A stretch of 64,000 nucleotides of DNA from Malaciobacter mytili LMG 24559 (lineage in GTDB: Bacteria > Campylobacterota > Campylobacteria > Campylobacterales > Arcobacteraceae), in assembly GCF_003346775.1 (NCBI RefSeq), contig NZ_CP031219.1, positions 2,294,001-2,358,000 on the forward strand. Direction: 5' to 3'. The notes under the pieces were generated by a model. It saw only the letters and a program-made list of their open reading frames with translations. It had not been told where the DNA came from and did not search any database. Position 1 is the stretch's first letter; every line of letters starts with the position of its first letter. Below are positions 4,592 to 24,541 of the stretch, piece by piece. The translations under genes and the position numbers were made by a program.

Positions 4592-4600
4592 AAATTATCC

Positions 4601-6070: not shown

Positions 6071-6077
6071 CTAAATC

Positions 6078-8151: not shown

Positions 8152-8188
8152 TTAACTTTTCCTCTTTTTTTATAATTTTTATACTTAA

Positions 8189-8812: not shown

Positions 8813-8816
8813 CTAC

Positions 8817-9686
8817 TTAGCCTTTATTTTGTATATCTATCATAATTTCAAGTAATCCTTGTCCAAAATCAATATAAGGATTATTTACAATTTTTTTACC
8901 AACTTTTGGATGATATAAAGAATAAGGTGAAAATTCATAATGTCCCTTATAATTTTCATTTGAGTATGTAATTACAATATCATCATTTATTATTTCTTTA
9001 ATAATATTTAGCAATTCTTTATAAGTATGTTTTTCAATACCTGTTAAAATTATATGTTCATTTTTATATGATTCATTAAGAATTTCTACACTTAATTTTG
9101 CGGCATCTTTTACATGAATATATTCTCTAACCTCATTACCTGTACCTTTATATGTAATAGTATTACTTTCTAAAGCTTCTTTAATTAAACAATATATTCT
9201 ATTTTGTTTATCTGCTCTTGGCCCATAAACAGAACCATATCGAATAATTGTATATTCTAAATTAAATTGTTCGTTATACTCTTCTATCATTTTTTCAGAT
9301 GCTTGTTTGCTTATACCATAAAAAGAGCCTTTTTGAGAAAATACATATGCACTACTTGCATAAATATACCTTTTAATATTACTTAACCTACAAGCTTCTA
9401 AAATATTTGTATTACCTAAAATATTGAGTTTAACAGTTTTTAAAGGCTCACTTATAGCAATATTTATATCAGCTAAACCAGCAAAATTATAAACTATATC
9501 ACAACCAGCAACTGCTTGTATAACACTATTTAAATCTAATATATCAACATATTTAAATATCTGTTTTTTAGATATATATAAAGACTCTTTAATATCAGCT
9601 ATAATTACCTCAAAATTATTATTACTTAACTCATCAGCAACATGACTTCCTAAAAATCCAGAACCTCCAAAAACTATAGCTTTCAT
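8817..9686 (-). CDS. NAD-dependent epimerase/dehydratase (extended SDR)
   Basis: 289 residues of an extended short-chain dehydrogenase. The Rossmann glycine motif GGSGFLGSH is at the N-terminus, and the catalytic tyrosine and lysine are in YGISK. RYGSVYGPRA matches the sugar-nucleotide-binding region of UDP-glucose-4-epimerase-like enzymes. It would epimerise, dehydrate or reduce an activated sugar. The ATG overlaps the upstream dehydrogenase stop by 4 bp (9683-9686), showing translational coupling. The exact substrate cannot be read from the sequence. Confidence 0.85.
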   Translation of the reverse strand: MKAIVFGGSGFLGSHVADELSNNNFEVIIADIKESLYISKKQIFKYVDILDLNSVIQAVAGCDIVYNFAGLADINIAISEPLKTVKLNILGNTNILEACRLSNIKRYIYASSAYVFSQKGSFYGISKQASEKMIEEYNEQFNLEYTIIRYGSVYGPRADKQNRIYCLIKEALESNTITYKGTGNEVREYIHVKDAAKLSVEILNESYKNEHIILTGIEKHTYKELLNIIKEIINDDIVITYSNENYKGHYEFSPYSLYHPKVGKKIVNNPYIDFGQGLLEIMIDIQNKG

Positions 9687-10612
9687 AAGTTTTTTTCTCC
9701 AAGGAACTTTTTTATATGTTTTATTGCACTTCTTCCCATTAATAAAATTGATTCATTTGAATTACCTCCAATATGAGGAGTACAAAATAATCTATCTTGA
9801 TTTATTAATTTTTTATCAAAATTTGGTTCTTTTTCATAAGTATCAAGTGCAGCTGCTGCAATTAATTTATCTTTTAATGCTATTTTTAAATCATTATTAT
9901 TTACGATTTCTCCTCTAGCAGTATTTATTAAAATAGCTGTTTTTTTCATTTTTTTAAATACTTCTAAATTAAACATATATTTAGTCTCTTTAGTTAAAGG
10001 GGTATGAATTGAAATAATATCCGAATTAGCAAATATTTCTTCTTTTGTTGCTTCTATTAAATTATATTTTTTATAAAACTCATCTTGAGAAAATATATCA
10101 TTTACTAATATTTTACAATTAAATGGTTGCAATAGCTTTATAACTTCTTTACCTATATTTCCTACACCAATTATTCCAATTACTTTATTAGATAAATTAT
10201 TACCACCTACTTTATTCCATAAGCCATTTTTCATTCCATATGAAGCAAATACCATATTTCTAATTGTAGTTATCATAAAACCTAAAGTCATTTCAGCAAC
10301 TGATAGTTTATTTACACCACTTGTCCAACCAATACCTATATTTTTTGCTTTACAATAATCAATATCTATATTATCAAGTCCTACCCCATATTTTGCTATA
10401 AATTTAAGCTTTGGACAACTATCAAGAAGCTCTTTATCAATAGTTTCCAAACCAATAATTGCAATATCAGCATCTTGAAGATATTCTTTTAATATATTAT
10501 CTTCAAAATGAATATTTGTATCATTTAATACAACATTATCAAAGTTATTTTTTAATTCTTCTATTAATATTGGATGAGTTGAAAAAGATGGAGAAGTTAC
10601 TTTAATTTTCAT
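9683..10612 (-). CDS. D-isomer 2-hydroxyacid dehydrogenase (SerA/GyaR-like)
   Basis: 309 residues. Cofactor-binding motif GIIGVGNIGKEV lies in the middle; catalytic Arg in NTARGE, Glu in YEKEP and the His in TPHIGG are all present, so it should be active. It lacks the C-terminal ACT domain of full-length phosphoglycerate dehydrogenases, so it is probably not the serine-pathway enzyme. It overlaps the radical SAM gene by 11 bp. Beside transketolase-like genes, it may reduce or oxidise a 2-hydroxy/2-keto acid intermediate that builds a modified sugar; inference. Confidence 0.85.
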   Translation of the reverse strand: MKIKVTSPSFSTHPILIEELKNNFDNVVLNDTNIHFEDNILKEYLQDADIAIIGLETIDKELLDSCPKLKFIAKYGVGLDNIDIDYCKAKNIGIGWTSGVNKLSVAEMTLGFMITTIRNMVFASYGMKNGLWNKVGGNNLSNKVIGIIGVGNIGKEVIKLLQPFNCKILVNDIFSQDEFYKKYNLIEATKEEIFANSDIISIHTPLTKETKYMFNLEVFKKMKKTAILINTARGEIVNNNDLKIALKDKLIAAAALDTYEKEPNFDKKLINQDRLFCTPHIGGNSNESILLMGRSAIKHIKKFLGEKNL

Positions 10613-12062
10613 AATTTCTTTCTAATTTTTTACTTGTCATAAATTTGATATGCTCTACTACTTTAACACCAAATTTTTCTTCAATCATATCTAAATATTT
10701 TTTACTTGTAAAATATTCTTGCCATGCTTTATCTCTAAATTTCAATACATCCATTGCACTTAAATATTTAGTTGATAAGGGTAATTGATTTTTTGCATGT
10801 TGAGAATAATCACCCCAATTTGAGGGTAATTTAATTCCTTTTTCAATTGCTTCATCATATAGTTTAGAACCAGGATATGCCATAGCACTATAGATATTAA
10901 AAAACTCTGTATTTAAATCAATAGCCATATCAAGAGTTTCTTGCATTGTTTTTTCATTATCATCAGGTAAGCCAACTATAAAGTTTGTAAGAACCCTTAT
11001 TTTGGCATCTTGAATTGATTTTACAACTTCTTTTATATCCCTATATTTTAACTTTTTATCTGCTCCATCTCTAACAAATTCACTTGCAGATTCAATACCT
11101 AAACAAAACCAATTAAATCCAGCTTTTTTCATCTTTGGTAAGAAATCTTTTTTTACAGTATCTACTCTTGCATAACACCAAATATTTATATCAAGATTTT
11201 TTTCTAATAGTAATTCTGTTATTTTCATATAATGATTTTCATTAAGTATAAACATTTCATCAATAAATTTTATATTTTTAACATTATATTCTTTAGCTAA
11301 GTGTTCAATTTCATCTACTACAAGTTTAGGACTTCTATATCTTATACTTGGTTTTCCAAAAGTTGCATTTATACAACAAAAACTACATTTATAAGGACAC
11401 CCCAAGCTTGTATATATTGCACCATAAGGTTGTCTTTCATCAATATTATCAAAACAGTGCCAATTGTGGGCTTTATACTTTTCCATTGGCAATAGATCCC
11501 AAGCTGCCATTGGTAAATATTCATCTAAATTATCAATTAATTTAGGCTTTTGGTTATTTACTATCATATTATTTTTATAATACCACAGCCCAGGTACCTC
11601 ATCAAGAGATAAATTATTTTTTAATACTTCAATTAATCTTTTTAAGGGTATTTGCTCTTCACCTTCTATTACATAATCTACATCCTCTTCTTCTAAAGTT
11701 CTTTGAGGTAAAGCTGAAGGATGTAATCCTGCTATAACTATAGGCATAGAACAATTTTGTTTTATGATAGTACACATTTTACTTGCAATTGCCATTGTTT
11801 GGGTTGAAGCAGAGGGTTGCCCTCCGTAAACAATCATACAAACTAAAAGAGGGTTTATTTCATTTATTTTTTTTGCTGTTTCTTCAGGAGTTAAATTCTC
11901 AGCATTTGAATCAATAATATTTACACTTATATCATTATTTCTTAAATAAGCAGCAATAGAGGCTATCATAAATGGTGGTTCAACTGCAGCTAAATCAACT
12001 CCTAAATTTTGAAAAGTTATTTTTTTATTTCCAGGATTTACAAATACAACATCTATTTTCAT
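10602..12062 (-). CDS. B12-binding-domain radical SAM protein
   Basis: 486 residues. The first 150 or so form a cobalamin-binding-type Rossmann domain (DSNAENLTPEE, IVIAGLHPSALPQ). The radical SAM core follows with the Fe-S motif CPYKCSFCC and then GIESASEFVRDGADKK. This architecture occurs in BchE-like and methylating enzymes that act on unreactive carbon atoms. A bound cobalamin is expected but the classic DxHxxG is not evident, so the N-domain may be only a structural relative. It overlaps both neighbours (4 bp with the transketolase gene, 11 bp with the dehydrogenase). A C-methylation or rearrangement of a sugar or acid is a plausible role; inference. Confidence 0.85.
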   Translation of the reverse strand: MKIDVVFVNPGNKKITFQNLGVDLAAVEPPFMIASIAAYLRNNDISVNIIDSNAENLTPEETAKKINEINPLLVCMIVYGGQPSASTQTMAIASKMCTIIKQNCSMPIVIAGLHPSALPQRTLEEEDVDYVIEGEEQIPLKRLIEVLKNNLSLDEVPGLWYYKNNMIVNNQKPKLIDNLDEYLPMAAWDLLPMEKYKAHNWHCFDNIDERQPYGAIYTSLGCPYKCSFCCINATFGKPSIRYRSPKLVVDEIEHLAKEYNVKNIKFIDEMFILNENHYMKITELLLEKNLDINIWCYARVDTVKKDFLPKMKKAGFNWFCLGIESASEFVRDGADKKLKYRDIKEVVKSIQDAKIRVLTNFIVGLPDDNEKTMQETLDMAIDLNTEFFNIYSAMAYPGSKLYDEAIEKGIKLPSNWGDYSQHAKNQLPLSTKYLSAMDVLKFRDKAWQEYFTSKKYLDMIEEKFGVKVVEHIKFMTSKKLERNYEN

Positions 12063-12994
12063 TCTTTGTCTTTATAATAAAATTTTTTTATTTTTTCAAT
12101 AATTGTATTAATATCTATACCAGATAATTTATGGATATATTCTCTTCCACCATTATCAAATACATATTTATCAACAATACCAATTCTTAAAACGGGTATT
12201 AAAATCTCTAAATCAGCTAATGTTTCTAATACACAGCTACCTAAACCTCCATCTAAGAAATGTTCTTCTAGAACTATTAATTTATTGTAGTTTATAGCTA
12301 TTTCTTTAAGTTTTTCTTTATTTAATGGTTTTATAGTAAAAATATCAACTAAACCTAAATTAATACCTTCTTTAGCTAATTTTTCTTTTACAATTATTGC
12401 TTTTTGAAACATATATCCATTTGTAAGTATAGCAATATCTTTACTCTTTTCAATTTCAGATATTCCATCTAAAGGATTTTTATTTATATATATATCTGGT
12501 AAATATTTTCTATCAATTCTAATATATCTAAATTTAGGTTTTTCATATGTGACTTTAGCAGCTTGAATAGTAGATTTTTCGTCACTTGGATTTAAAATTT
12601 CAATATTTGGAATTACTCTCATACAACTTATATCTTCAATTGCATAGTGTGTTGGCCCAGCATCATCATAACTATACCCTGCACCTACTCCTATTATAGT
12701 AACAGGAAGATTCATACTAGCAATTACAACTTTAATCTGCTCATAACAACGATAAGTAACAAAAGGAGCCATTGCATAAACATATACTTTTTTCCCACAT
12801 TGTGATAAACCAGCTGCAACATCAATCATATTTTGCTCTGATATACCACAATGAATAAACTGACTTGGAAGTTCTTGCCTAAATCGATCTAATGCTTTTG
12901 CTCCAAGATCAGCACTTAAGAAGTATATATCTTTATCTTTCTTTGCCAAATCAAATATAATATCTATAAACACATCTCTAGGTAAATTACTCAT
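12059..12994 (-). CDS. Transketolase-like subunit, C-terminal half
   Basis: About 311 residues comprising the pyrimidine-binding and C-terminal domains of transketolase. GISEQNMIDVAAGLS contains the catalytic glutamate that activates thiamine diphosphate, and LVDIFTIKPLNKE is typical of the C-domain. I chose the ATG at 12994 (MSNLPRDVF) because AAGGA sits 5-6 bases before it; a TTG eight codons upstream (13018) would overlap the preceding gene. It forms a functional enzyme only with the N-terminal subunit encoded next to it. Split transketolases of this kind are common in antibiotic and surface-sugar loci, where they transfer two-carbon units. Confidence 0.85.
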   Translation of the reverse strand: MSNLPRDVFIDIIFDLAKKDKDIYFLSADLGAKALDRFRQELPSQFIHCGISEQNMIDVAAGLSQCGKKVYVYAMAPFVTYRCYEQIKVVIASMNLPVTIIGVGAGYSYDDAGPTHYAIEDISCMRVIPNIEILNPSDEKSTIQAAKVTYEKPKFRYIRIDRKYLPDIYINKNPLDGISEIEKSKDIAILTNGYMFQKAIIVKEKLAKEGINLGLVDIFTIKPLNKEKLKEIAINYNKLIVLEEHFLDGGLGSCVLETLADLEILIPVLRIGIVDKYVFDNGGREYIHKLSGIDINTIIEKIKKFYYKDKE

Positions 12995-13002
12995 TTTCAT
13001 CC

Positions 13003-13830
13003 TTACTCTATTATGCAATTTGTTGCTAATTCTTTATATGCTTGCTCAATTTGCGCTTTAGTTGGCATTTTATTATGCCATAAAGGATGATTTTCCATAA
13101 AAGAAATACCTTTACCTTTTACTGTATGTGCGATAATAGCTTTTGGTTTACCATTTTTATTGTTTATTATTTTAAACCCTCTTTGTATATCTTTATGAGA
13201 ATGTCCATTTACATTAATAGTTTCAAAACCAAATGATCTAAATTTATTTTCTAAAGAACCTTGATCTATACAGTTTTTTGTTTCACCCATAATACATAAT
13301 CCATTAACATCTAAAATAACAATTAGATTATCTAACTTATAATGTGAAGCAAACATTGCACTTTCCCAAATAGAACCTTCATAACACTCCCCATCACCTA
13401 TAATTACAAATGACTTATAATCTTTATTATCTTGTTTTGCAGCATATGCATAACCATTTGAAATACCAAGTCCATGTCCTAAAGAGCCAGTGATAGCTTC
13501 TATTCCAGGAATTGTATGATCAGCATACATTCTTAATATCCCATCAGGTTTTGTAAATTTTTTTAATTCAGATTTATCAAAATAACCTAATTCTTGTAAA
13601 ATAGGATATAGTACCATCGCAGCATGACCTTTACTAACAATAAGTCTATCTCTATTAGGATTATTAGGATTTGTAACATCAAAATTCATAATCTTTCCAT
13701 AAAAAAGATTAAGTACAATTTCAAGCGATGAAAAAGAAGAAGGAATATGACCTTTCATATCTTGCATTACTAAATCAAATAACTTAATTCTTATTTCTTG
13801 TGATTTATTTATTAATCTTTCAATCTCCAA
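13003..13830 (-). CDS. Transketolase-like subunit, N-terminal half
   Basis: 275 residues with the thiamine-diphosphate motif: it opens with GDGECYEGS and ends at the Asn in LDVNGLCI. SKGHAAMVLYP and GSLGHGLGISNGYA match the transketolase substrate channel, with the conserved histidines. First gene of the leftward unit, beginning after an AT-rich divergent promoter region; 8 bp separate its stop from the start chosen for the C-terminal half. Together the two would move a ketol group between phosphosugars, or condense one to make a branched or chain-extended sugar. It is distinct from a housekeeping full-length transketolase, which should lie elsewhere. Confidence 0.88.
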   Translation of the reverse strand: MEIERLINKSQEIRIKLFDLVMQDMKGHIPSSFSSLEIVLNLFYGKIMNFDVTNPNNPNRDRLIVSKGHAAMVLYPILQELGYFDKSELKKFTKPDGILRMYADHTIPGIEAITGSLGHGLGISNGYAYAAKQDNKDYKSFVIIGDGECYEGSIWESAMFASHYKLDNLIVILDVNGLCIMGETKNCIDQGSLENKFRSFGFETINVNGHSHKDIQRGFKIINNKNGKPKAIIAHTVKGKGISFMENHPLWHNKMPTKAQIEQAYKELATNCIIE

Positions 13831-14213
13831 TAAGGAACTCCTTAATTATAATACTACACATTATTTAACTTAAAAATTGAAATAATAGTTTTCTTTTTAA
13901 TATTTTCTATATAAAAAACTGAAAAGCTTTTGTATTTTTTATAGTATTTGTTTTTTTAATTTATCTAATAATTTAAATAATACTATAAAAATAATAATTT
14001 TTTCATAAAGTATCTTTTTTATAACACCTAGTTTACTTTATAAGAAGACCTTTAAAAAGCCATATAAATTAAGATTTTATTAGATACAATAATAATTGAC
14101 TCAAATTTTAAAGTGTTCATAAAATAACTTTAATATCCTTCTTAAATTAAAAAATAGGTTATTTATAAAAAATGGCATTTAAAATATTTAATTTAATAAA
14201 GTTAATTTAATAT
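13831..14213. promoter_or_regulatory. AT-rich divergent control region of the accessory locus
   Basis: 383 bases between the two divergent units, with no credible gene on either strand. It is extremely AT-rich and should carry both promoters. Several TATAAT-like strings occur, so I do not assign individual -10 boxes. No strong hairpin or clear operator repeat was recognised. The ribosome site in front of the rightward start at 14214 is poor. Confidence 0.45.
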
Positions 14214-15314
14214 ATGATTGATAATAAAAAAGAAACTAAGTTAGTATATAGAACTATACAAAGACATCTAATCTCATCACCTAATTTAAAACCTGCTTAT
14301 GATATTGTTCAACAAATAATTCATATTTTTGCTAAACCAGCTTTTTATGAAATTAGTAATAAATGTAATTTAAAATGTGAAGGATGTTACTACTTTGACC
14401 CTTCAGTATTTAAAAGTGAACCTTTAGAAAATGAAATCTTTTCAAATAACTGGGAAAAGTTACTCGCTAGTGAATCAAAGCGAGGAGTAACAATGCCTTA
14501 TTTTTTAGGTGCAGAACCTGCTTTAGAAGAAAAGCGTTTAATTGTTGCTGCTAAATATTTTAAAAGAGGTAATATTGGAACAAATGGCACAGTTTTTTTA
14601 AGTTCTGAGATTCCCTTTCGTATAAGTATTTCAGCTTGGGCTGGAGATGAAACAGATGATATAGTTTATCGTGGAGGTAAAGCTTTACATAAGGCTTTAA
14701 AACTTTATAAAAATGACCCAAGAGCAATAGTTTTATATACACTTAATAGATACAATATTACGCAAACAAAAGATATTGTTAAACTAAGTAGAGATAATGG
14801 TTTACCTATAACATTTAATTTATGGTCTCCTCCAAAAAACTTATTATTAAATTCAAATAAATCTATAAATTTATCATTTAGAAATGAAGATTTAAAAAAA
14901 GTACGTGAAACTCTTGATGAAATGATTGAAAGTTTTCCTGATACTGTAATTTATTCTCATAAATATAATCAATGGTCTACAGCATCTGGTCCCTTATATG
15001 ATCTTGACTCTCAAGGAATTGCTAAAGATTGTGCATCTCGTCTTAAGGGTAATTTTGCATATTATGGACTTGATTTACAAAAAAAAGATTTTAAATGTTG
15101 TACATCATCTATTGAATGTAGTGAATGTAGACTCTATTCTGGTGGTTGGTCTAGCCATTTTTCTCCAAAAGAAGAACAAATAAGAACTATTAAAGATTTT
15201 TCCCAATGGATTGATATGATATTAACTATTGGACGAATTTTTCTTAGAAAAGAAATAGATACCAAAGCTTTTTTAAATAATGAAAACATCAACTACAAGG
15301 ATATAATAGTATGA
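14214..15314 (+). CDS. Radical SAM protein, possible peptide or small-molecule modifier
   Basis: 366 residues. The canonical Fe-S cluster motif CNLKCEGC gives Cys 51, 55 and 58. A C-terminal cysteine-rich segment (FKCCTSSIECSECRLYSGG) could bind an auxiliary cluster, as in SPASM or twitch domains. Between them, FRISISAWAGDE and LWSPPKN follow the expected barrel order. It starts the rightward unit, and its stop overlaps the P450 start by 4 bp, so the two enzymes are made together. Arginine is often coded by CGT/CGA here, unlike the AGA habit of most of the window, which hints at transfer. Substrate unknown; no precursor peptide gene was found nearby. Confidence 0.8.
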   Translation: MIDNKKETKLVYRTIQRHLISSPNLKPAYDIVQQIIHIFAKPAFYEISNKCNLKCEGCYYFDPSVFKSEPLENEIFSNNWEKLLASESKRGVTMPYFLGAEPALEEKRLIVAAKYFKRGNIGTNGTVFLSSEIPFRISISAWAGDETDDIVYRGGKALHKALKLYKNDPRAIVLYTLNRYNITQTKDIVKLSRDNGLPITFNLWSPPKNLLLNSNKSINLSFRNEDLKKVRETLDEMIESFPDTVIYSHKYNQWSTASGPLYDLDSQGIAKDCASRLKGNFAYYGLDLQKKDFKCCTSSIECSECRLYSGGWSSHFSPKEEQIRTIKDFSQWIDMILTIGRIFLRKEIDTKAFLNNENINYKDIIV

Positions 15315-16603
15315 AATCTTTAATTCCACCACAACTAAAATTTCAACCACTAAAAAATATTAAAGCAACAAGTGCATTACGAGCAATGTTATATGCTGAA
15401 GAGTTTTGGCCAGAAGAAATTTTAAATAAACCTTCAGTATCATTAAAAACAACAACAGGAGAATTACTTTTTTTATCTGATCCTTTTTTAGTAAAAGAAG
15501 TTTTAACAAGAAATGATGGAACAATTCCTAGATCTAGACTTCAACAAAGATTTGCAGGACATGGGACAGGAAGAGAAAATGTGATTACGGATATTGGAAA
15601 ACGAAGTGCTATGCATAGAAAAACTCTTGCACCTTTATTTTCTCCTGATAGATTTAATACATATTTTCCTTTTATCAAAATGACTTTAGAAGAAGCTATT
15701 AAACCTATATTTGATGCTATAGAAAAAAAAGAGCCCATAGATATAGGACGAGTATGTGTAAATGGAACATTTGGTGTTATTTGGCAAATATTATTTGGTG
15801 AAGACAAAAAATTAACACCTCCTTTAATCGTAGAACAAATGGCAAATACACTTTATGAAGCAGGATTAAGTGGCGAATTAACTCAGACTTCAAAAGCAGT
15901 TAAACAAGCAAAAGAAATAAGTTTATCTTTACGTCCTTTAGTACCTTTAGTATCAGATACACCCTTTGCAAAAAATCCTAAAATAAATTTACAATTAACA
16001 AATAAAGAATTAGAAGATAATGCGCAGTTTTTATTAACTTCAGGGCATGAAAGTACAGCTTTAACAATTACTTGGGCCTTATTTTTATTAGCTCATTATC
16101 AAGATGAACAAGAACTTATTGCAAATGAAATAAAAAATATTCTTGGAAACAAAGAACTTACATTGGATATTTTACATAAATTGCCAAGGCTTAATAATTT
16201 ATTCAATGAAACCATGCGTCTTTATCCATCAGCAATTTTAGTTAATCGTGAAACAATACAAGATGTTACAGTAGGAGAACTAAGTATAAAAAAAGGTACA
16301 CAAATAGCAGTTTGTTTTTATAGTATGCACCGGCATAAAAATTATTGGAAAGAACCAGATAGTTTTAACCCAGACCGGTTTAATACATTAAATAAAGAGC
16401 AACTTCGAGCTTTTATGCCTTTTTCAACAGGACATCACAGCTGCTTAGGTGGAAAACTAGCTTGGTTAGAAGCTATGACTATTTTAACAACTATTTTAAA
16501 AGATGTAAAAATACTTTCATGCAAAAATTCTATAAAACCCATAGCAAGATATACTCTTCGTCCAGATGGTCCTGTTATGTTAGAAGTTCAAAAAAGAAAT
16601 TAA
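15311..16603 (+). CDS. Cytochrome P450
   Basis: 430 residues, a complete soluble bacterial P450. The haem motif FSTGHHSCLGG places the axial cysteine at residue 378. The I-helix oxygen-activation motif is TSGHESTALT, the ExxR is in NETMRLYPS, and the PERF-like element is FNPDRF. No membrane anchor. It would hydroxylate or otherwise oxidise a substrate made by this locus; no ferredoxin or reductase gene is in the window, so redox partners must come from elsewhere. P450s are rare in Campylobacterota (the Campylobacter CYP172 enzyme is the known example, from memory), which makes this notable. The 4-bp overlap with the radical SAM gene implies a joint pathway. Confidence 0.95.
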   Translation: MKSLIPPQLKFQPLKNIKATSALRAMLYAEEFWPEEILNKPSVSLKTTTGELLFLSDPFLVKEVLTRNDGTIPRSRLQQRFAGHGTGRENVITDIGKRSAMHRKTLAPLFSPDRFNTYFPFIKMTLEEAIKPIFDAIEKKEPIDIGRVCVNGTFGVIWQILFGEDKKLTPPLIVEQMANTLYEAGLSGELTQTSKAVKQAKEISLSLRPLVPLVSDTPFAKNPKINLQLTNKELEDNAQFLLTSGHESTALTITWALFLLAHYQDEQELIANEIKNILGNKELTLDILHKLPRLNNLFNETMRLYPSAILVNRETIQDVTVGELSIKKGTQIAVCFYSMHRHKNYWKEPDSFNPDRFNTLNKEQLRAFMPFSTGHHSCLGGKLAWLEAMTILTTILKDVKILSCKNSIKPIARYTLRPDGPVMLEVQKRN

Positions 16604-16640
16604 TAGTTTGTATTTTTATTTAATATATGGATTTTAATCT

Positions 16641-18572
16641 ATGAAAAAAAAGACCTATTTTTTATCTATTTATGCCCATATTGGTGAATTAGAAGCAGCA
16701 TATAAAATTGTTAGAAGACATGACCAATGCATGGCATTATGGTATATTATTGAAAATAAACTCACTTTAGTTCGATATTGGGAATTTGAACGTTTAAGTG
16801 GTATTAAAAATCATGGTATCTCTTTTTCAAATATTGAAAATGCTAAAAAATTTATTATAGATCTTTTGAGTGAAGAAGGTTTAAAATTAGAAGATATTGA
16901 TAATATTATTGGGACACCAGGATTAGAAACTATATCAGATAAATTTAGCTTAAATACAAAAAATTCCTTAACATATCATAGCTTATGTCACTTATATACT
17001 GGTTTATTTATAGACTCCTCAATCTTTTATAAAGAAAAAATACTTTGTTTAGCCTTAGATGCTGGTCCAGATCATGTACTAGATTTAGATGTATGGGAAA
17101 AAGACAATTATTTAGCTGCATATGTAAATAAAGGTGTAATGACAACTTTTTCAGTGGACTCTCCTGCAATTTTATGGGCTTTTTTAAGAGAATATTGCAA
17201 TATGCAAGAAGGAACATTAATGGCTTTAGGAAATGCTTGTTTAGCAAAAGCAAATATTTCAATTTCTGCTTTACCAAAAATTTTTTCTTTAAAAGATAGA
17301 AATGAAGCTTATAAATGGTTTATTAATATAGCTGAACAAATTAATTCCTTAACAGAAAAAGATGAAGGGATTTTATTTGAAAATTTAGATTTAAGATTTA
17401 GTTTTTCAGAAAATAAAACTAGTATGCTTGTTAAAATCATACAAACATGTTCTGTAATGATGATTGAAAAAACTATTTGCAAAATTATTGATAGATTTAA
17501 TATTTCTCCTAGTGAAGTATATTTATCTTTAGTAGGAGGTTTTGCTTTAAATTGCCCAGCAAATGCTCAATTAATGAATATCTTTAAATTTAAAGGATTT
17601 AAAGCTCCACCTGTAGTTAATGACTCAGGTATGGCTCTTGGAATAGGACTAATTTATGCTCATTTAACTTTAAATAAGTTTGAATTTTCTTTAGATAATG
17701 CCTATTATGGAAGAAAATATAATAATAAAGAATTACTCAAACAAACTAATAGCTTTAACAACTTAATTGAAAAAGTTGAAAAAGTAAATTATGATAAAAT
17801 CGTTTCAGATATTATTGATAATCCAATTGTTTGGTTTGATGGTAGTGCAGAAATTGGACCTAGAGCTTTAGGTCATCGTAGTTTACTTGCTGATCCCCGT
17901 TATTTAGAATCAAAAGATAAACTTAATGATATAAAACAGCGTCAATGGTGGCGTCCAGTTGCACCTATTGTTCTTTTAGAATTTGTACATGAATGGTTTA
18001 ACCTAATTGGAGATTCTCCTTTTATGTTGCAAGCAGTTGATGTTATAGATTCAAAAAAAGATAAGATACCTGCCGTATGCCATTTAGATAAAACTGCAAG
18101 AATCCAAACAATCACTTCTAAAGATTCTTCTAAACTATATGAAGTAATACAATGTTTTTATAAAAAAACTGGCGTACCAATGTTATGTAATACATCTTTA
18201 AATGCAAAAGATGAACCAATTATTGATACTTTAGAAAGAGCTATACTCTTTGCTTTAGAAAAAAATATCAAAATTGTTTATTTAAATGGTTATCGTATTC
18301 AATTAAGAAATACTATAAAAAAGCACTCTATAAGTTATAAAAGAACAAAACTTGATTACTTTATAAAAAACAATACATTAATAGATATTAAACTTAATCC
18401 ATATAATTTGGCAAGAGAAGAACTTGTGGCTTATTTTTCAGACCCAAGGCTTATGAAAAAATATGATTTAACTAAGTATAAAGATGTTTGTATTATTCGT
18501 CGTCATTTAAATATAGAAAAAAAACAAAATAGTATAAGAATGCAAACAATGTTATCTAATGTTAGAAAATAA
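16641..18572 (+). CDS. Carbamoyltransferase (NodU/CmcH family)
   Basis: 643 residues, normal for the family. The N-terminal part is the Kae1-like carbamoyl-adenylate domain, with HSLCHLYTG, VGGFALNCPANAQL and NDSGMALGIGL. The C-terminal part is YrdC-like, with the hallmark GSAEIGPRALGHRSLL and later CNTSLNAKDEPI. Relatives transfer carbamoyl from carbamoyl phosphate to a hydroxyl of a sugar or antibiotic (NodU on Nod factors, TobZ on tobramycin). It lies 37 bp after the P450, so a hydroxyl made by the P450 could be the acceptor; inference. The last roughly 80 residues are lysine-rich and less typical. Confidence 0.88.
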   Translation: MKKKTYFLSIYAHIGELEAAYKIVRRHDQCMALWYIIENKLTLVRYWEFERLSGIKNHGISFSNIENAKKFIIDLLSEEGLKLEDIDNIIGTPGLETISDKFSLNTKNSLTYHSLCHLYTGLFIDSSIFYKEKILCLALDAGPDHVLDLDVWEKDNYLAAYVNKGVMTTFSVDSPAILWAFLREYCNMQEGTLMALGNACLAKANISISALPKIFSLKDRNEAYKWFINIAEQINSLTEKDEGILFENLDLRFSFSENKTSMLVKIIQTCSVMMIEKTICKIIDRFNISPSEVYLSLVGGFALNCPANAQLMNIFKFKGFKAPPVVNDSGMALGIGLIYAHLTLNKFEFSLDNAYYGRKYNNKELLKQTNSFNNLIEKVEKVNYDKIVSDIIDNPIVWFDGSAEIGPRALGHRSLLADPRYLESKDKLNDIKQRQWWRPVAPIVLLEFVHEWFNLIGDSPFMLQAVDVIDSKKDKIPAVCHLDKTARIQTITSKDSSKLYEVIQCFYKKTGVPMLCNTSLNAKDEPIIDTLERAILFALEKNIKIVYLNGYRIQLRNTIKKHSISYKRTKLDYFIKNNTLIDIKLNPYNLAREELVAYFSDPRLMKKYDLTKYKDVCIIRRHLNIEKKQNSIRMQTMLSNVRK

Positions 18573-18713
18573 GTATAATAAAGAAAAATATTATATTCAG
18601 AAATATTTAGATAAAAGTTACTTTAGTTTCTAAAGATATATTACTATTCAAGAGATTATAAGTAATTAAATTGTATTTTAAGAAAAAATTATTTTAAAGT
18701 GTCATAATATTTC

Positions 18714-20147
18714 ATGCAGTTTCACAGTTTTGAATACGCTGTTTTTTTAGTTCTTATTGTAATTAGTTATTATTTAATTCCTCACCGTTTTAGATGGGGA
18801 TTATTATTGGCAGCTAGTTACTTCTTTTATGGAGCTTGGAGAATAGATTTCCTCCTATTATTAGTTATTTCTACATTAACAGATTTTATATTATCAATAT
18901 TTATTGAAAAAGAAAAATCTGCTTATATACGAAAAGTATTATTAATCGTTAGTTTATCAATTAACTTGGGACTTCTATTTATTTTTAAATATATTGGTGT
19001 AATTATTAATTTTATTATAGGTATTATTTCTTTTGAAAACTTTTCTGAAATAGATATTATATTACCACTTGGAATATCATTTTATACTTTTCAAACTATT
19101 AGTTATACAGTTGATGTATATAGAAAAAGAATTCCTGCTGAAAAGCATATTGGTTATTATGCTCTTTATGTTGCCTTTTTCCCTCAATTACTTGCAGGTC
19201 CAATAGAGCGTGCATCAATGTTACTAAAACAGTTTAAAATTCCTAAAAAAATTAATTTTACAGGGATTAAAATTGGATATGGTTTAATTTTATTTGGTTT
19301 ATTTAAAAAAATAGTAATTGCAGATAGTATTGATGAATACTTTGATCCAATTAGATTAAATCCACAAACATATAATGCTTTTGATGTATTTTTAGCTGCA
19401 CCTGCAACAATATATCAGTATTATTGTGATCTATCTGGCTATGCTGATATTGCTATTGGTTCAGCACTTTTATTAGGTATTCAACTAAGTCAAAACTTTG
19501 ATAGACCCTTTGCTGCCACAAGTACAAGAAAGTTTTGGTACAAGTGGCATATTACTGTTACAAGTTGGTTTAGAGACTATTTATTAAGGCAGTTTACAAC
19601 AAAAGATAAACGTTCAGTTACAACAATTAGACCTATGCCACTTATTTTGACAGGATTATTAATTGGATTATGGCATGGGGCACAATTGGGTTGGATAATT
19701 GCAGGAATTTCTGTTGGAGTTTTATCTATATTAGAAAGTAGATGGATAAAGTGGAAAGTTAAATATAAAATTACTCCTAAAAATCGTTTTCAAAGAAGAA
19801 TTTTTGATTGGATTGGACGATTTTATGTTTGGATAATTGTTTTTTTTGTAATAGGCTTTCCTTTAACTTGGGAAAATTTCAATAATATTCAAGCTGTTAT
19901 AAATCAATTTATTTTATTCCTTCCTACGGATATTTTTCAATGGAAATTTAGTTTTATCTCATCAAAAATCATTATCTTAATTATAATCTTGGAGCTTTGG
20001 CAATGGCTAAATGAACAAAAAAAAATAAAACAAATAAAAGAAGCTGTTCCTTTTGAACTTTGGTGGTTCTTTCAACTTTTTTTCTTGATTTTTATTTTAA
20101 ATTTTGCGGTATATGGAAAACCAGGCTTTTTATACTTTAAGTTTTAG
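18714..20147 (+). CDS. MBOAT-family membrane O-acyltransferase, second copy
   Basis: 477 residues, polytopic, with the same architecture as the MBOAT encoded at 4601-6070 but clearly a different sequence. Motifs include LPLGISFYTFQTISYTVD, FFPQLLAGPIER, CDLSGYADIAIGSALL, the ATSTRKFWYKWHIT segment and GLWHGAQLG with the catalytic His. It follows the carbamoyltransferase after 141 bp of AT-rich sequence and is 8 bp ahead of an SGNH-like gene, forming the second acylation pair of the locus. The upstream gap may hold its own promoter; ribosome site weak. Acceptor unknown. Confidence 0.9.
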   Translation: MQFHSFEYAVFLVLIVISYYLIPHRFRWGLLLAASYFFYGAWRIDFLLLLVISTLTDFILSIFIEKEKSAYIRKVLLIVSLSINLGLLFIFKYIGVIINFIIGIISFENFSEIDIILPLGISFYTFQTISYTVDVYRKRIPAEKHIGYYALYVAFFPQLLAGPIERASMLLKQFKIPKKINFTGIKIGYGLILFGLFKKIVIADSIDEYFDPIRLNPQTYNAFDVFLAAPATIYQYYCDLSGYADIAIGSALLLGIQLSQNFDRPFAATSTRKFWYKWHITVTSWFRDYLLRQFTTKDKRSVTTIRPMPLILTGLLIGLWHGAQLGWIIAGISVGVLSILESRWIKWKVKYKITPKNRFQRRIFDWIGRFYVWIIVFFVIGFPLTWENFNNIQAVINQFILFLPTDIFQWKFSFISSKIIILIIILELWQWLNEQKKIKQIKEAVPFELWWFFQLFFLIFILNFAVYGKPGFLYFKF

Positions 20148-20155
20148 GAGAAAAA

Positions 20156-21166
20156 TTGCATCAATTAAAACAACTTATAAATCTTCGTAAAATATTAATT
20201 ATTATCATAGGAACTATTATTATAGTAACTGGTTTAAATAAAATTAGTATAGTTTATCCTTCTAGTCATGAAACATACAACAAATATATTGATGAGGGTA
20301 TTAAATTATTATCTACTAATGAATATACTGCAATTGCAATAGGAAGTTCAATAGGTTTTTCACTAAATTTTGATGATTTAAATATTAAAGGTCTAAATTT
20401 TTCTTATGCTTCAAGAGACCTCTTAGAAGATGCTTACTTATTAAAACTTTTAGTAGAACAGTCTAATTCCATAAAGTATATTTTTTGGAGTGTTGGTGGA
20501 GCAAATAGTATGATGACAAATAATGCTTGGTATGCACCTTTTGTAAGAAGAGAGTTCTACCGCGCTGTAAATAAATATGAAACTAGTTTATTAGAACCAA
20601 TAGCTAATGATTGGAGTAATTATATACAAGGAAATTTTTTCCCTTTAATAAGAAAAGATTTTTGGAAAGAGCCTATAAAAAAAATTTTTAAACCTTCTAA
20701 AACTTATGAACAAAAAGATCTTTTTAAAGCTTTAAAAATAGTTAGTAAAGACTCACTATTAAGTAGAAATAGTAATACATTAACTCAAGAATATAATATT
20801 CAAAAAAATAATATGAAACAATTTGAAAACTCTCAATACTATTATCATAACACACCACAGTTAATTATGGAAGAAGTAATCAAAATGTGTAAATTTGTTG
20901 CTTCAAAAAATAAACAATTAATTTTTATCACTCCTCCATTTACTAAAAGTTATTTAGAACTTTCTAATACTCTTAATATCAAAGGAAAAGAATATTGGCA
21001 AAAAGTTATAAAAGAATGTAAAGAAAATAAAGCAATAGTTTTAGATTGGTCAAAAGATGATAACTATAAAAATAATTATAAATATTTTTATGATTATATT
21101 CATCTAAACCAAGAAGGCAATAAAATTTTTATGAAAGACCTATATAAAACTTTACAAAGACTTTAA
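20156..21166 (+). CDS. SGNH-like membrane-anchored protein, MBOAT partner
   Basis: 336 residues starting at TTG, supported by AGGAG a few bases upstream and the 8-bp spacing from the MBOAT gene. One N-terminal membrane segment (IIIGTIIIVTG) precedes a periplasmic domain. AIGSSIGFSLNF provides the Ser block, and YDYIHLNQEGNKIF provides the Asp/His block. Its layout matches the protein at 3572-4591, suggesting that each MBOAT has its own dedicated partner. Last gene of the rightward unit. Confidence 0.65.
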   Translation: MHQLKQLINLRKILIIIIGTIIIVTGLNKISIVYPSSHETYNKYIDEGIKLLSTNEYTAIAIGSSIGFSLNFDDLNIKGLNFSYASRDLLEDAYLLKLLVEQSNSIKYIFWSVGGANSMMTNNAWYAPFVRREFYRAVNKYETSLLEPIANDWSNYIQGNFFPLIRKDFWKEPIKKIFKPSKTYEQKDLFKALKIVSKDSLLSRNSNTLTQEYNIQKNNMKQFENSQYYYHNTPQLIMEEVIKMCKFVASKNKQLIFITPPFTKSYLELSNTLNIKGKEYWQKVIKECKENKAIVLDWSKDDNYKNNYKYFYDYIHLNQEGNKIFMKDLYKTLQRL

Positions 21167-21611
21167 TAATATTATTTATATTAACTAATAACAAAAAAAA
21201 CATAGAGTGTTTAATTTATATAAAGATAATTTCACTTTACTTTTTCAAGTTTAATTAAAATATTCATATCTTTGTTCAAATCAATCCATTGCCTTTTTGA
21301 TTTATAGCCATCTTTTGTATTAAAATATCATATTTATCTTTTTTAACATAATTCCTTGTTTAAACTTTGTTTTTATATTCATTATTTTGATTATTGGGTT
21401 ATCTACTTTCACTAATTTTAACATAATGTTTTTCTATGTCCTATTTAGTGTAGCCAGATCAAATAAACCTACTGTACCACTTAACCACTTTATTGCATTA
21501 TTAATATTATTAAACATTAAATACTTTTATTTTTATAGAATTCTATTTGTTTATAAATTAAAATAGTTATACATGCTTCAAAATTTGGACATGCTAACAA
21601 TTTTAAATTTT
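21167..21611 (-). pseudogene. Remnants of decayed coding sequence
   Basis: No intact gene in these 445 bases. On the minus strand short open pieces remain, for example MFNNINNAIKWLSGTVGLF near 21520-21450, a piece containing VDNPIIKIMNI, and TKDGYKSKRQWIDLNKDMN near 21325-21255, in different frames and separated by stops. They read like broken protein, possibly mobile-element cargo, but I do not recognise a family. The stretch lies between the glycan locus and the Fic/integrase island. Confidence 0.35.
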
Positions 21612-21749
21612 CTAATCTAAAATCTTTTTTTGTTCAATTGCAAATAAAAAATCAGTTATTACATCTGTATGGTGTTCATCTTTTTTCAATTGATTTACTG
21701 CATTTATATAATCATCTTGTGTAATTTCTTCTAGTTTTGATATTTTCAT
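21612..21749 (-). CDS. Small hypothetical protein, 45 aa
   Basis: A 45-residue frame (starts MKISKLEEITQDDYINAV, ends FAIEQKKILD) with a strong AAAGGAG ribosome site 6-8 bases before the ATG. It is acidic, probably helical and without membrane segments. It lies 30 bp downstream of the Fic gene on the same strand, so it is probably co-transcribed. It could be a small partner of Fic or the surviving start of a longer gene. No family recognised. Confidence 0.45.
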   Translation of the reverse strand: MKISKLEEITQDDYINAVNQLKKDEHHTDVITDFLFAIEQKKILD

Positions 21750-21779
21750 ATTAGAACTCCTTTTATATTAAATTAATTA

Positions 21780-22970
21780 TCAGTTCTCAAATAAATCAGG
21801 TATAAGATAGCTAGACAACTTACTATTTAATTTAAATCTTAATTTCCCTCTAGGACTATCTGTTTGTAAATAATCTTCTTCTAGTAACTCTTTTACAATA
21901 GCTATAGCCTTAGGAGCACTTACACCTAAGATTTCTTGAGCATCGCCTCTAGTTACTTCTCCATGAACCAATAAATACTCTAAGAGTTTATTTGAGTTTT
22001 TTGGTAGAGGTTTGACATTATGAATTAATTTTTTTTGTGATAGTTCAACATAAGCTTTTATTTTTGTTGCCATAGAATCTAATTTTAAATATTCACTCAT
22101 AAATAATACTTGATCTAATGCAATATCTAACATAAATTCTAAAAAGTTTTCAAGTCCTTTTAATGTTAATGGTCCTCTTCCATCATTATATCCACTAAAC
22201 TTTTCATCTGCTAATGATAAAAACTTTCTATACTCTTTTTGATTTCTAGCAAGCCCTCTTGATATATTCCATAGTCCATAACCTTGGATATCGCAATGAT
22301 ACATTAAGTAATCTAAATAAAGTCTAGATACTCTTCCATTTCCATCATAAAATGGATGTATATATGTTAATCTATGATGGGAGCACAAAGCATAGATTAG
22401 TTTCATTGTATGTGTAGAGTTTTTAGATTGATTATATAACATCTCAAATTCATTGAAACAAGCTATTAATTCATCACTTTGAGGTGGAATATGTTCTCCA
22501 ACTTGAACATAACCTTCTCTTAGTTTACCAGGTATCATTTCTACTTCTAACTCACCATTTTTAATATTTAGTGCATATTTCATCTCTTCTTTACTATAAA
22601 ATTCTTTATGAATCTCTAGTATTTTTTCTAATGAATATGGTTTAGTTGAGATATCTAGTGTTGTTTCTAAAAATTTTTGTACTTCAATATGTACCAATGA
22701 CAGTTGTTGCATACTTTTCTTTTTAGTATCTTTAGAAAATTCATTTTTCATTGCACGTTCAATATCAATAGGATGTGTACCTTCTGATTCAATTTTATTT
22801 GAGTAATAAGAGTTTATAGTCCGTAAATTTTCTTTTATTGCATTAATTATATGAATATTTAAATTTCCTGTTAACTTAGCACTCTCAATTATAATACGTT
22901 CCGCTTTATTAAGTATCTCTTGTTTTAAAGGATAATGTTCAGTTTGTGGTATAATTGGAGTTGTGTACAT
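21780..22970 (-). CDS. Fic-domain protein with C-terminal winged helix
   Basis: 396 residues. The active-site loop HPFYDGNGR is at 205-213 and matches the consensus, so AMP-transfer activity is expected. The N-terminal region has an SNKIE element like the inhibitory helix motif of self-inhibited (class II) Fic proteins. The C-terminal part (about 325-376, GEVTRGDAQEILGVSAPKA) looks like a winged helix-turn-helix, suggesting DNA binding or autoregulation. It lies next to an integrase, an accessory setting. Targets unknown. Two identical 19-base repeats lie just upstream. Confidence 0.9.
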   Translation of the reverse strand: MYTTPIIPQTEHYPLKQEILNKAERIIIESAKLTGNLNIHIINAIKENLRTINSYYSNKIESEGTHPIDIERAMKNEFSKDTKKKSMQQLSLVHIEVQKFLETTLDISTKPYSLEKILEIHKEFYSKEEMKYALNIKNGELEVEMIPGKLREGYVQVGEHIPPQSDELIACFNEFEMLYNQSKNSTHTMKLIYALCSHHRLTYIHPFYDGNGRVSRLYLDYLMYHCDIQGYGLWNISRGLARNQKEYRKFLSLADEKFSGYNDGRGPLTLKGLENFLEFMLDIALDQVLFMSEYLKLDSMATKIKAYVELSQKKLIHNVKPLPKNSNKLLEYLLVHGEVTRGDAQEILGVSAPKAIAIVKELLEEDYLQTDSPRGKLRFKLNSKLSSYLIPDLFEN

Positions 22971-23014
22971 TCGTAACCTTTTTATAGAAAAAGTATAGAT
23001 TATATATACTTTTT

Positions 23015-23124
23015 TTTAAATTCTTTTTTAAATCTTTTAATAGATTAAATATACCATAAAATAGATATTTATAACACTATTTTTTTAAATTATATTATAA
23101 AGTTTTTAAATTCTTTTTTAAATA
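23015..23124. repeat. Pair of 19-base direct repeats upstream of the Fic gene
   Basis: The 19-mer TTTAAATTCTTTTTTAAAT occurs at 23015-23033 and again at 23106-23124, both between the Fic start and the integrase end. It may be an operator pair for the Fic winged helix or a duplication. AT-rich background makes chance repeats commoner, but 19 identical bases is notable. Confidence 0.5.
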
Positions 23125-23151
23125 AAGGAAATTGATACTTATTTATCAGTT

Positions 23152-24381
23152 TTAAACTAATTTAATATTATCCAACCAATCAGCATACCACTGTATCAAT
23201 TCTCTTTTCTCTTCAAAATACTTAAATTTTGATTCTCTATTATAAGCCCTTCTTACAGCATTTCTATCTTTATGAGCTAAACAAGCTTCTATAACATCAC
23301 TATTAAATCCATGAGATTTCATATTATCATGACATACAGTTGAAAACATACTTCTAAAGCCATGAAATGTATGTTTATCTTTATAACCTAATTTGTTAAG
23401 TGTATCAGATAAAGTTGCACCAGCAACACCCCTATCATTTTTATAAGGAGAAGGAAAAACAAATTCACTTCTATTTTTAGAGTAAATTTCAACATTTTTA
23501 AGTATTTGAATTGCTTGTGTAGGTAAAGGGAAAATAAAATCATTATTAGTTGATACTTTCATATTCTTTTTAGAAATAGTCCATATACCTTTTTCTAAAT
23601 CTAATTCTTTCCATCTCATTAATCTAATATTTGCACTTCTTACAAATACATACGGTACTATTTTCAATATCAATGCAGTACTAATATCAGTTTTAAATTT
23701 TTTTTGAATAGTACTAATATCTTTTAAAAGCTCTTTTATTTCATTTGGTTCTGTAATTGCAGGTAGATGATTTTCACTGTTTTTAACCAAAATAGATGAC
23801 TTATCTATATCACCAATTATATTACGTTCAACATACTCATTAGTAACTGCAAATTTAAATATTTTATCTAGTAATGAAAATAGTCTATGAGCTGTTTCAA
23901 TGTTACCTTTTTTTTGTACAACCTGTAAAGCAGAGATAATATCAACTCTTTTAATATCTTTTAGTGCAAAATCACCTAAAGTAGAAGTTACATTTTTTAG
24001 TATTCTTTCATTTTGTGTTACAGTAGCAGGACTACTATTTAACTTTCTTAAATCAAGCCATTTTGATACAATAAAGTTTAAGTTAATACCCTCTTCTAGC
24101 TTTTGACTATTTTTATATGTTATAGGGTTAATATTCTTTAAAAGTTGTTCTTTTGCTCTTTCCCTAGATTCTCGTGCTTCTTTTAAAGAAACAAGAGGAT
24201 AAGTACCAAAAGACATTGATTTTCTTTTACCACCATAAGAAAAATCAAATCTCCACATTTTGTTTCCACTTTTTCTAACAAGTAAAAAAAGTCCATTTCC
24301 ATCAGATAACTTGTATTCTTTATCTTTTGGCTTAGCTTTTCTAATTTCTGTATCAGTTAGTGGTTTTACGGTAGCTGGCAT
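23152..24381 (-). CDS. Tyrosine-type site-specific integrase with DUF4102 N-domain
   Basis: 409 residues. The N-terminal arm-binding domain (LTDTEIRKAKPKDKEYKLSD, then FGTYPLVSLKEARE) is typical of P4-like island integrases. The catalytic domain shows Arg in RSANIRLMRW, His340 and Arg343 in HGFR, His370 in LAHKDR and the nucleophile Tyr380 in RRAYNR, so it looks intact. Such enzymes normally integrate at tRNA 3' ends, but no tRNA is adjacent here. It and the Fic gene appear to be the remains of a small genomic island. Confidence 0.92.
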   Translation of the reverse strand: MPATVKPLTDTEIRKAKPKDKEYKLSDGNGLFLLVRKSGNKMWRFDFSYGGKRKSMSFGTYPLVSLKEARESRERAKEQLLKNINPITYKNSQKLEEGINLNFIVSKWLDLRKLNSSPATVTQNERILKNVTSTLGDFALKDIKRVDIISALQVVQKKGNIETAHRLFSLLDKIFKFAVTNEYVERNIIGDIDKSSILVKNSENHLPAITEPNEIKELLKDISTIQKKFKTDISTALILKIVPYVFVRSANIRLMRWKELDLEKGIWTISKKNMKVSTNNDFIFPLPTQAIQILKNVEIYSKNRSEFVFPSPYKNDRGVAGATLSDTLNKLGYKDKHTFHGFRSMFSTVCHDNMKSHGFNSDVIEACLAHKDRNAVRRAYNRESKFKYFEEKRELIQWYADWLDNIKLV

Positions 24382-24434
24382 TTTTTACGGTACTCCATAT
24401 TAAAAATCAATTTTATACCGTAAAATATACCGTA
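24364..24434. promoter_or_regulatory. Cluster of TACCGTA heptamers at the integrase start
   Basis: Four copies of one heptamer lie within about 70 bases: as TACGGTA at 24367-24373 and 24386-24392, and as TACCGTA at 24416-24422 and 24428-24434. The first two are inverted relative to the last two, and each pair extends into A- or T-rich flanks. They straddle the integrase start codon, as expected for integrase arm sites or an autoregulatory operator. Function is inference. Confidence 0.5.
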
Positions 24435-24503
24435 TAAAAGCTGAAATTTGTTTGAAAAAATATGAAAAAATATGAAGTAATATGAAATATATAAGATAGA
24501 CAA

Positions 24504-24523
24504 AGCCCCATTTTAAAGGGGCT
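24504..24523 (-). terminator. Hairpin downstream of the YciI gene
   Basis: AGCCCC (24504-24509) pairs with GGGGCT (24518-24523) across an 8-base loop; reading leftward the stem is followed by TTTG. A modest intrinsic terminator for the YciI gene. Confidence 0.5.
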
Positions 24524-24541
24524 ATATGATTTTAAATGAAG

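Follow-up and report, generated by a model that had tools for sequence, protein, structure and literature searches.

Background

In the MBOAT-SGNH pairs described in PMC12148441, the MBOAT protein acylates the tyrosine of its own C-terminal FXYXXF peptide, and this peptide delivers the acyl group to the SGNH enzyme. According to that paper, the Dlt system carries out the same transfer from a carrier protein via DltX, and most bacterial MBOAT-SGNH pairs work without a carrier and use acyl-coenzyme A (acyl-CoA), with PatA using acetyl-CoA. The acyl-Tyr/acyl-Ser relay chemistry is established for PatA/PatB and Dlt. VexE is presented as the TPR-LPLAT acyltransferase of the Vi antigen in PMC9597891, and Rattray et al. 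(PMC2649909) connect radical SAM genes found in Kuenenia and Desulfotalea with clusters for unusual fatty acids. Here we describe an operon of Malaciobacter mytili LMG 24559 in which an MBOAT/SGNH pair is encoded together with a radical SAM enzyme, a cytochrome P450 and a carbamoyltransferase. It lies in a stretch of 64,000 nucleotides (contig NZ_CP031219.1, positions 2,294,001 to 2,358,000), which as a whole is called the window.

Results

Recurrence of the five-gene set

Five co-directional genes at 14214-21166 on the plus strand of the window encode the radical SAM enzyme, the P450, the carbamoyltransferase, the MBOAT protein and an SGNH-fold protein (Table 1). The P450 open reading frame (ORF) overlaps the radical SAM ORF by 4 bp, the carbamoyltransferase gene starts 37 bp after the P450 gene, and a gap of 141 bp precedes the MBOAT gene; no terminators were found between the operon genes, where 2.0 were expected by chance. 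Gene order, strand, the overlap, the 37-bp spacing and the MBOAT/SGNH pair had been given in a preliminary description of this DNA and were confirmed by ORFs, families and fold. Its statement that the operon encodes no redox partner also held, as none was recognized among the five genes or the neighbors scanned.

Relatives were sought by a contig scan with the radical SAM protein, using two short peptide patterns and taking the best 80 of 116 relatives, followed by tblastn with the five proteins. The complete five-gene set was found clustered in two other genomes, the complete chromosome of Hyphomicrobiales UR115 (locus L019) and a gammaproteobacterial metagenome-assembled genome (L020). Identities to the window proteins in L019 were 56% for the radical SAM enzyme, 51% for the P450, 49% for the carbamoyltransferase, 52% for the MBOAT and 27% for the SGNH protein; the corresponding values in L020 were 56, 56, 52, 50 and 26%. 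The contiguous order carbamoyltransferase-MBOAT-SGNH and the adjacency of the radical SAM and P450 genes are kept in the window, L019 and L020, the two operon halves being divergent in L019 and convergent in L020. The radical SAM and P450 frames overlap by 1-8 bp in all nine loci where both genes were called. Since the five families are clustered in two other genomes, their grouping is not chance, and the five genes are well supported as a conserved set. The earlier view of the operon as one functional unit is supported by L019 and L020. To the question whether the genes stay together in related genomes, which the same description had raised, the answer is divided: close relatives are without them altogether, and distant genomes keep them together.

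The L020 set is flanked by leucine genes and no further pathway gene was recognized there, so that the pathway may need no more than these five genes and take its substrate from primary metabolism. In the gene clusters of the loci compared, no conserved exporter, regulator, nonribosomal peptide synthetase (NRPS) or polyketide synthase (PKS) gene accompanies the set. Whole-genome searches within orders covered samples of genomes; at E<=1e-20 the radical SAM enzyme was found in 6 of 341 genomes in one sampled order and in 3 of 293 in another, and the group sampled at order level around L019 consisted of one genome only. Pair counts of gene modules depend on the BLAST thresholds.

The MBOAT/SGNH pair

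The MBOAT protein carries the LWHG motif and matches DltB structures by phmmer (E about 1e-19); against the NCBIfam DltB model it scores 124.5 bits, below the cut-off of 375 bits. Neither the MBOAT nor the SGNH protein has a Pfam match at E<=0.001. The C-terminus of the MBOAT reads FLYFKF both in the window and in L019 and fits the published FXYXXF peptide. In the SGNH protein S65, D313 and H316 are invariant in three relatives. Its AlphaFold-type model, built on a three-row alignment and weaker than the radical SAM model, has a pLDDT of 73.3, and in Foldseek it resembles SGNH/GDSL esterases, CgnD of crocagin biosynthesis coming first; the best match has a probability of 1.00 and an E of 1.1e-3, and none reaches E<=0.001. 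The locus thus has the make-up of an MBOAT-SGNH pair, an MBOAT gene followed by an SGNH gene and a C-terminal FXYXXF peptide on the MBOAT. Because MBOATs of the window and of L019 end in this type of peptide, transmembrane acyl transfer by the putative MBOAT/SGNH relay is the best-supported step of the pathway considered below.

The P450, the carbamoyltransferase and the radical SAM enzyme

The P450 scores 196.2 bits with PF00067, over the Pfam cut-off, and E300 and R303 of the ExxR motif as well as the heme cysteine C378 are invariant in all nine relatives aligned; score, heme cysteine and ExxR together make it a cytochrome P450. P450s had been described as rare in this phylum. This had to be abandoned: 60 of 298 genomes contain a match to this P450 at E<=0.001, nearly all of them in two families; the matches cover portions of the C-terminal half, at 30-38% identity.

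Both Carbam_trans domains of the carbamoyltransferase pass their Pfam cut-offs (PF16861, 181.2 bits, cut-off 27; PF02543, 33.2 bits, cut-off 24), which places the protein in the TobZ/NodU superfamily of O-carbamoyltransferases. H113, H117, D140 and D328 are invariant in the eight carbamoyltransferases aligned, and we take them, from TobZ, to be metal ligands of the N-terminal domain. A NodU or Nod-factor assignment was rejected at 148.7 bits, the NCBIfam NodU equivalog cut-off being 1000 bits. The closest plasmid-borne relatives (35-40% identity) belong to Streptomyces clusters with cupin, methyltransferase, YcaO/TfuA, peptidase and transporter genes. On two Streptomyces plasmids (L015, L016) the nearest full-length relatives stand between YcaO/TfuA, cupin and methyltransferase genes together with an additional copy of dnaE that may confer self-resistance. 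On a Planktothrix agardhii plasmid (L165) a carbamoyltransferase has as its neighbors three Rieske proteins, two P450s and further oxidoreductases, and the third carbamoyltransferase of the Malaciobacter mytili genome (L150, 8260-10146) stands alone among housekeeping genes.

The radical SAM protein has no Pfam match at E<=0.001, PF04055 included, and both it and the SGNH protein are without a match in PHROGs. It belongs to the radical SAM superfamily by its cluster motif CNLKCEGC (CX3CX2C) and by the radical SAM fold of its AlphaFold model (pLDDT 85.9), which matches the structures of SkfB (Z 17.5), SuiB (Z 17.3), BlsE, DesII and viperin. C51, C55, C58, C295, C302 and C305 are invariant in an alignment of 27 rows, and C273 likewise in one of 18 rows.

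L040 and most of the distant radical SAM loci contain two adjacent radical SAM genes amid ketosynthases, a FabA-like dehydratase and thioesterase-like proteins, and of the 66 loci examined 57 contain the FabA-like cluster and 57 the ketosynthase cluster; L014, a locus without annotation, entered only the clustering. Radical SAM neighbors in the L040-type cluster are fatty-acid/polyene enzymes. L011 combines an acyl carrier protein (ACP), a TauD-type oxygenase, a radical SAM enzyme and an NRPS, and in L012 and L013 a PaaA-type protein is accompanied by a thioesterase or MaoC-type gene. Altogether, the contexts of the distant relatives lean towards thioester-bound substrates. The L040 cluster itself (Desulfobulbaceae, 9360-20309), of a type common among the distant loci, comprises tandem radical SAM genes, two ketosynthases, FabA-like and PS-DH proteins and an MMPL exporter-methyltransferase fusion.

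A second cluster with ligase and carrier protein

The only other strong P450 match of the genome and a second carbamoyltransferase lie together near 2.78 Mb in the cluster L130 (Table 1). The ACP of this cluster (84 aa, PP-binding 45.7 bits) overlaps the carbamoyltransferase start by 4 bp, and its P450-like protein (8404-9471), which falls below the Pfam cut-off, may not be a normal monooxygenase. Its core of a fatty-acyl-AMP ligase (FAAL), P450, ACP and carbamoyltransferase recurs on two roseobacter plasmids, with the ACP adjoining the carbamoyltransferase. Plasmid pSC52_1 of the Rhodobacteraceae strain SC52 (L161) encodes a B12-type radical SAM enzyme, a FAAL, a fused double P450, an ACP, a carbamoyltransferase and two MBOAT-containing pairs, the second MBOAT being 39% like that of the window. 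A Phaeobacter sp. G2 plasmid (L164) encodes a FAAL, a fused P450-like protein, an ACP and a carbamoyltransferase, with no MBOAT within the 21.7 kb examined. Because the carrier protein sits between P450 and carbamoyltransferase in the L130 family, this family is most naturally read as tailoring an acid while it is bound to the carrier, and by analogy the reading may be carried over to the window operon. The presence of ligase and ACP in L130 likewise suggests that the tailored molecule could be the acyl group being moved.

Modular variants of the operon

Among the 15 closest radical SAM loci of the contig scan (L019-L033, 36-56% identity) nine have an adjoining P450 and six of these also a carbamoyltransferase, L026 and L027 being two strains of one species and L027 and L030 lying on short contigs. 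In Amphritea (L025), Oceanobacter (L028) and Leisingera (L029) the radical SAM, P450 and carbamoyltransferase genes are accompanied by a TPR/LPLAT-like protein in place of MBOAT/SGNH, and the same genes occur reordered in Pseudovibrio (L026). In L126 and L127 a SAM methyltransferase takes the place of the carbamoyltransferase between the P450 and the TPR/LPLAT protein. L030 and L032 have radical SAM, P450 and TPR/LPLAT genes with no adjoining carbamoyltransferase, none being found in the L032 genome at E<=1e-20, and L021, L023, L024 and L031 have the radical SAM and TPR/LPLAT genes only.

The classes are split by a radical SAM tree of 29 hand-picked rows, only five of them from loci L036-L098: class I (window, L019 and L020) received 100/100, class II with L030/L032 96/92, L126/L127 100/100 and class IV 100/100, with warnings for long branches (L033, L128, L129) and for the odd letter make-up of the window row. 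The partner proteins of classes II, III and IV combine N-terminal TPRs with a C-terminus that resembles VexE and LPLATs, with a score of 86.6 bits in L025. In our reading, the variants share a core of a radical SAM enzyme, usually with a P450, and both the group that caps the new hydroxyl and the transfer enzyme can be exchanged. In Pseudovibrio and Leisingera (L026, L027, L029) the radical SAM-P450 cluster is followed by three phage-tail-collar-domain proteins, a GNAT and a small DUF6916-type protein.

The operon lies in an integrase-bearing island

The operon is located within an integrase-bearing island of ~22 kb (Table 1). At the right end the integrase is accompanied by a Fic gene; congener G131 has in the same place a Fic gene 98% and an integrase 65% identical, congener G1072 an integrase 62% identical, and G186 integrase fragments. 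No 12-mer that could represent attachment direct repeats was shared by the island ends in the stretches compared. The carbamoyltransferase is absent from all five congeners, and no close radical SAM relative was found in 297 other genomes of the order, which gave six weak partial matches (E 9e-5 to 7e-4). CGN codons account for 34 of 89 arginine codons in the operon versus 12 of 357 in twenty ORFs at 26-57 kb of the window (Fisher p 2.8e-17); they account for 9 of 70 in the opposite-strand genes of the island, and the most frequent arginine codon in the operon remains AGA (58%). The acquisition of the operon and its arginine-codon skew, both put forward from the first inspection of the DNA, are supported by the integrase island, the empty site in one congener, the absence of the carbamoyltransferase from congeners and the codon counts.

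Two further features of the island were observed. The Fic gene (window 21780-22970) is 98% identical to that of a congener (L142 15548-16738), whereas the neighboring core genes of the two are at about 80%, which indicates a recent exchange at this integration hotspot. On the minus strand, positions 4601-13830 encode a second MBOAT (C-terminus FIYFNF) with a GDSL-type protein, a family 2 glycosyltransferase (GT2), a cyclase-like protein, an epimerase, a 2-hydroxyacid dehydrogenase, a B12-binding radical SAM enzyme and a split transketolase, which looks like a separate glycan or small-molecule operon.

Table 1. Positions of the operon genes, their motifs and associated features (window coordinates unless L130 is named)
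Feature	Position	Strand	Basis
Radical SAM enzyme, 366 aa, Cys-rich C-terminus	14214..15314	+	ORF, motif, alignment, AF2 (AlphaFold 2) model
CX3CX2C radical SAM cluster motif, C51-C58	14364..14387	+	sequence, alignments
Cytochrome P450, 430 aa	15311..16603	+	PF00067, invariant residues
O-carbamoyltransferase, 643 aa	16641..18572	+	PF16861 and PF02543
MBOAT membrane acyltransferase, 477 aa	18714..20147	+	DltB-like, LWHG motif
MBOAT C-terminal FLYFKF, fits FXYXXF acyl-shuttle motif, Tyr474	20127..20144	+	sequence versus published motif
SGNH-fold protein, 336 aa, one N-terminal helix, TTG start	20156..21166	+	model, invariant residues
Stretch absent from congener G1073, flanking genes ~135 bp apart there (L141)	2315..24541	.	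comparison with congener
Tyrosine integrase, right end of island	23152..24381	-	PF00589, PF13356
L130 cluster: methyltransferase, FAAL-like, P450, P450-like, ACP, carbamoyltransferase, MBOAT, SGNH-like, B12-type radical SAM	FAAL to B12 radical SAM at L130 5635-15385		

Discussion

We propose, with a probability of roughly 0.4, that the operon is a horizontally moved, self-contained tailoring-and-transfer pathway and that what MBOAT/SGNH transfer as the acyl group is the tailored molecule itself, the acyl nature of the substrate being what we infer. In such a pathway, the radical SAM enzyme would functionalize an unreactive position of an acid bound as a thioester to the cell's own ACP or CoA. 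The translationally coupled P450 would hydroxylate the acid with housekeeping redox partners and the carbamoyltransferase would carbamoylate the new hydroxyl; hydroxylation and O-carbamoylation are what would be expected from family knowledge of the two enzymes. Judged by the motifs, the MBOAT would then move the acyl group from the thioester to Tyr474 of FLYFKF, and the SGNH protein would take it on Ser65 and hand it on to an acceptor outside the cytoplasm, which is probably a glycan of the surface. More tentatively, the scheme might extend to at least two non-orthologous cluster families, both in this genome, in which a carrier-built acyl group, modified by the radical SAM enzyme, hydroxylated and carbamoylated, would be passed via the MBOAT shuttle to the SGNH protein and decorate the surface. 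The idea of a pathway that builds, oxidizes, carbamoylates and acylates one product, as first formulated, is sharpened by the acyl-shuttle signature and by the ligase and ACP of L130, short of proof. No description of such a pathway was found in open-licence PubMed Central (PMC) papers, in agreement with the earlier statement that no characterized pathway has this set; subscription journals lay mostly outside the search, so that a description there is possible.

Several observations weigh against the proposal. The complete five-gene set was seen in only three genomes, and the window operon ORFs include neither the adenylating ligase nor the carrier protein of a Dlt-type pathway; with these absent and PatA using acetyl-CoA, MBOAT/SGNH may merely acetylate an exported product. 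The shuttle motif is inexact in L020 (FLYFGY), in L130 (FIYGQ) and in one MBOAT of L161 (VIYENF). L130 is non-orthologous to the window operon: clear relationships, over parts of the proteins, are confined to the carbamoyltransferases (34%) and the MBOATs (26%), and the SGNH-like gene of L130, which matches no family, was recognized by motif and position only. The P450s of class I are only 20-27% like those of classes II and III, and the TPR proteins are without the usual LPLAT motif H(X)4D/E, having a conserved His followed by xGP and no acid at +5 (12 LPLAT-like rows). Finally, the fold matches of the radical SAM enzyme include sugar, nucleotide and peptide enzymes, so that the fold names no substrate class.

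The main rival, which we regard as somewhat doubtful, turns the roles around: the product of the radical SAM enzyme, P450 and carbamoyltransferase would be the acceptor, a small molecule or glycan block that is exported and O-acetylated from acetyl-CoA by a PatA/PatB-like MBOAT/SGNH pair. This would agree with the carrier-free, acyl-CoA-using habit of most bacterial MBOAT-SGNH pairs and with the use of acetyl-CoA by PatA (PMC12148441), and with an operon that has no carrier. The GT2, the sugar-nucleotide-type enzymes and the second MBOAT/GDSL pair of the island point the same way, although the glycosyltransferase and the opposite-strand genes do not recur in L019 or L020. The radical SAM fold matches also include two enzymes with sugar-type substrates, BlsE and DesII. 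However, acetylation of an exported acceptor leaves unexplained both the exchange for a TPR/LPLAT-like protein in class II and the ligase and ACP of L130, L161 and L164.

We think it rather unlikely that the product is diffusible, a lipid-like or alkaloid-like antimicrobial or signal that receives a fatty acyl tail from the MBOAT or the TPR/LPLAT protein. The Streptomyces clusters around the closest plasmid-borne carbamoyltransferases and the patchy occurrence of the radical SAM enzyme in the sampled orders would suit such a product, whereas the set has no exporter, regulator, NRPS or PKS gene as a conserved companion, and the SGNH partner and the acyl-shuttle motif point to an extracytoplasmic polymer. 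A ribosomally synthesized and post-translationally modified peptide (RiPP), altered by the radical SAM enzyme and the P450 and then carbamoylated and acylated, is a quite improbable product: SkfB and SuiB are among the best fold matches and the P450 resembles ApyO in NCBIfam (101 bits, far below the 525-bit cut-off), but no convincing short ORF is common to the window, L019 and L020. The search for a conserved precursor among ORFs of 20-120 aa in or near these clusters was negative, the best match reaching E 0.007 across just a few hydrophobic residues. An accidental meeting of two unrelated operons in the island, which the 141-bp gap and the separate transcription units in L019 and L020 might suggest, is largely refuted by the clustering of the five families in three genomes of different higher taxa, with carbamoyltransferase, MBOAT and SGNH genes contiguous in all three.

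If the tailored molecule is indeed the acyl group being transferred, this Dlt-like route, in which the acyl group is tailored by a P450 and by carbamoylation, would be an envelope modification of a new class. Transmembrane acyl transfer, of which the known cases involve simple groups like acetyl and D-alanine, would extend to a densely functionalized, carbamoylated acyl group, and a radical SAM family without any Pfam model would gain a substrate logic. The swaps from genome to genome, carbamoyl for methyl cap and MBOAT/SGNH for TPR/LPLAT-like release, make the order of steps testable. Should the product be secreted instead, the operon would still be a small portable natural-product pathway of which no member is described in the open-licence literature searched.

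Compared with known systems, the carbamoyltransferase shares both Pfam domains with TobZ, GdmN and NodU, and the solved TobZ and GdmN structures are matched by phmmer, but its N-terminal half is divergent. The Desulfobulbaceae fatty-acid clusters have distant radical SAM relatives (28-31%) beside ketosynthases and a FabA-like dehydratase and differ from the operon in being without P450, carbamoyltransferase, MBOAT and SGNH genes; they may be compared in kind with the Kuenenia and Desulfotalea clusters of PMC2649909. Like VexE, the class II, III and IV partners have N-terminal TPRs and a VexE-like C-terminus; they differ in scoring far below the 1200-bit VexE cut-off and in having HxGP instead of H(X)4D/E, and no such protein is encoded in the window. 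With the MBOAT-SGNH systems of the PatA/PatB, alginate and Dlt type the window pair shares LWHG, the C-terminal FXYXXF and an SGNH-fold partner in which Ser, Asp and His are conserved, whereas it is co-encoded with a radical SAM enzyme, a P450 and a carbamoyltransferase, and L019 and L020 have no known polymer partner gene. The likeness to Dlt (DltA-DltC-DltB-DltD) would be closest if the acyl group of the window pathway were carrier-borne, as L130 unites ligase, ACP, MBOAT and SGNH-like genes in one cluster; the window operon differs from Dlt in having neither ligase nor carrier, in the addition of a P450 and a carbamoyltransferase, and in a shuttle peptide that is fused to the MBOAT instead of being placed on DltX.

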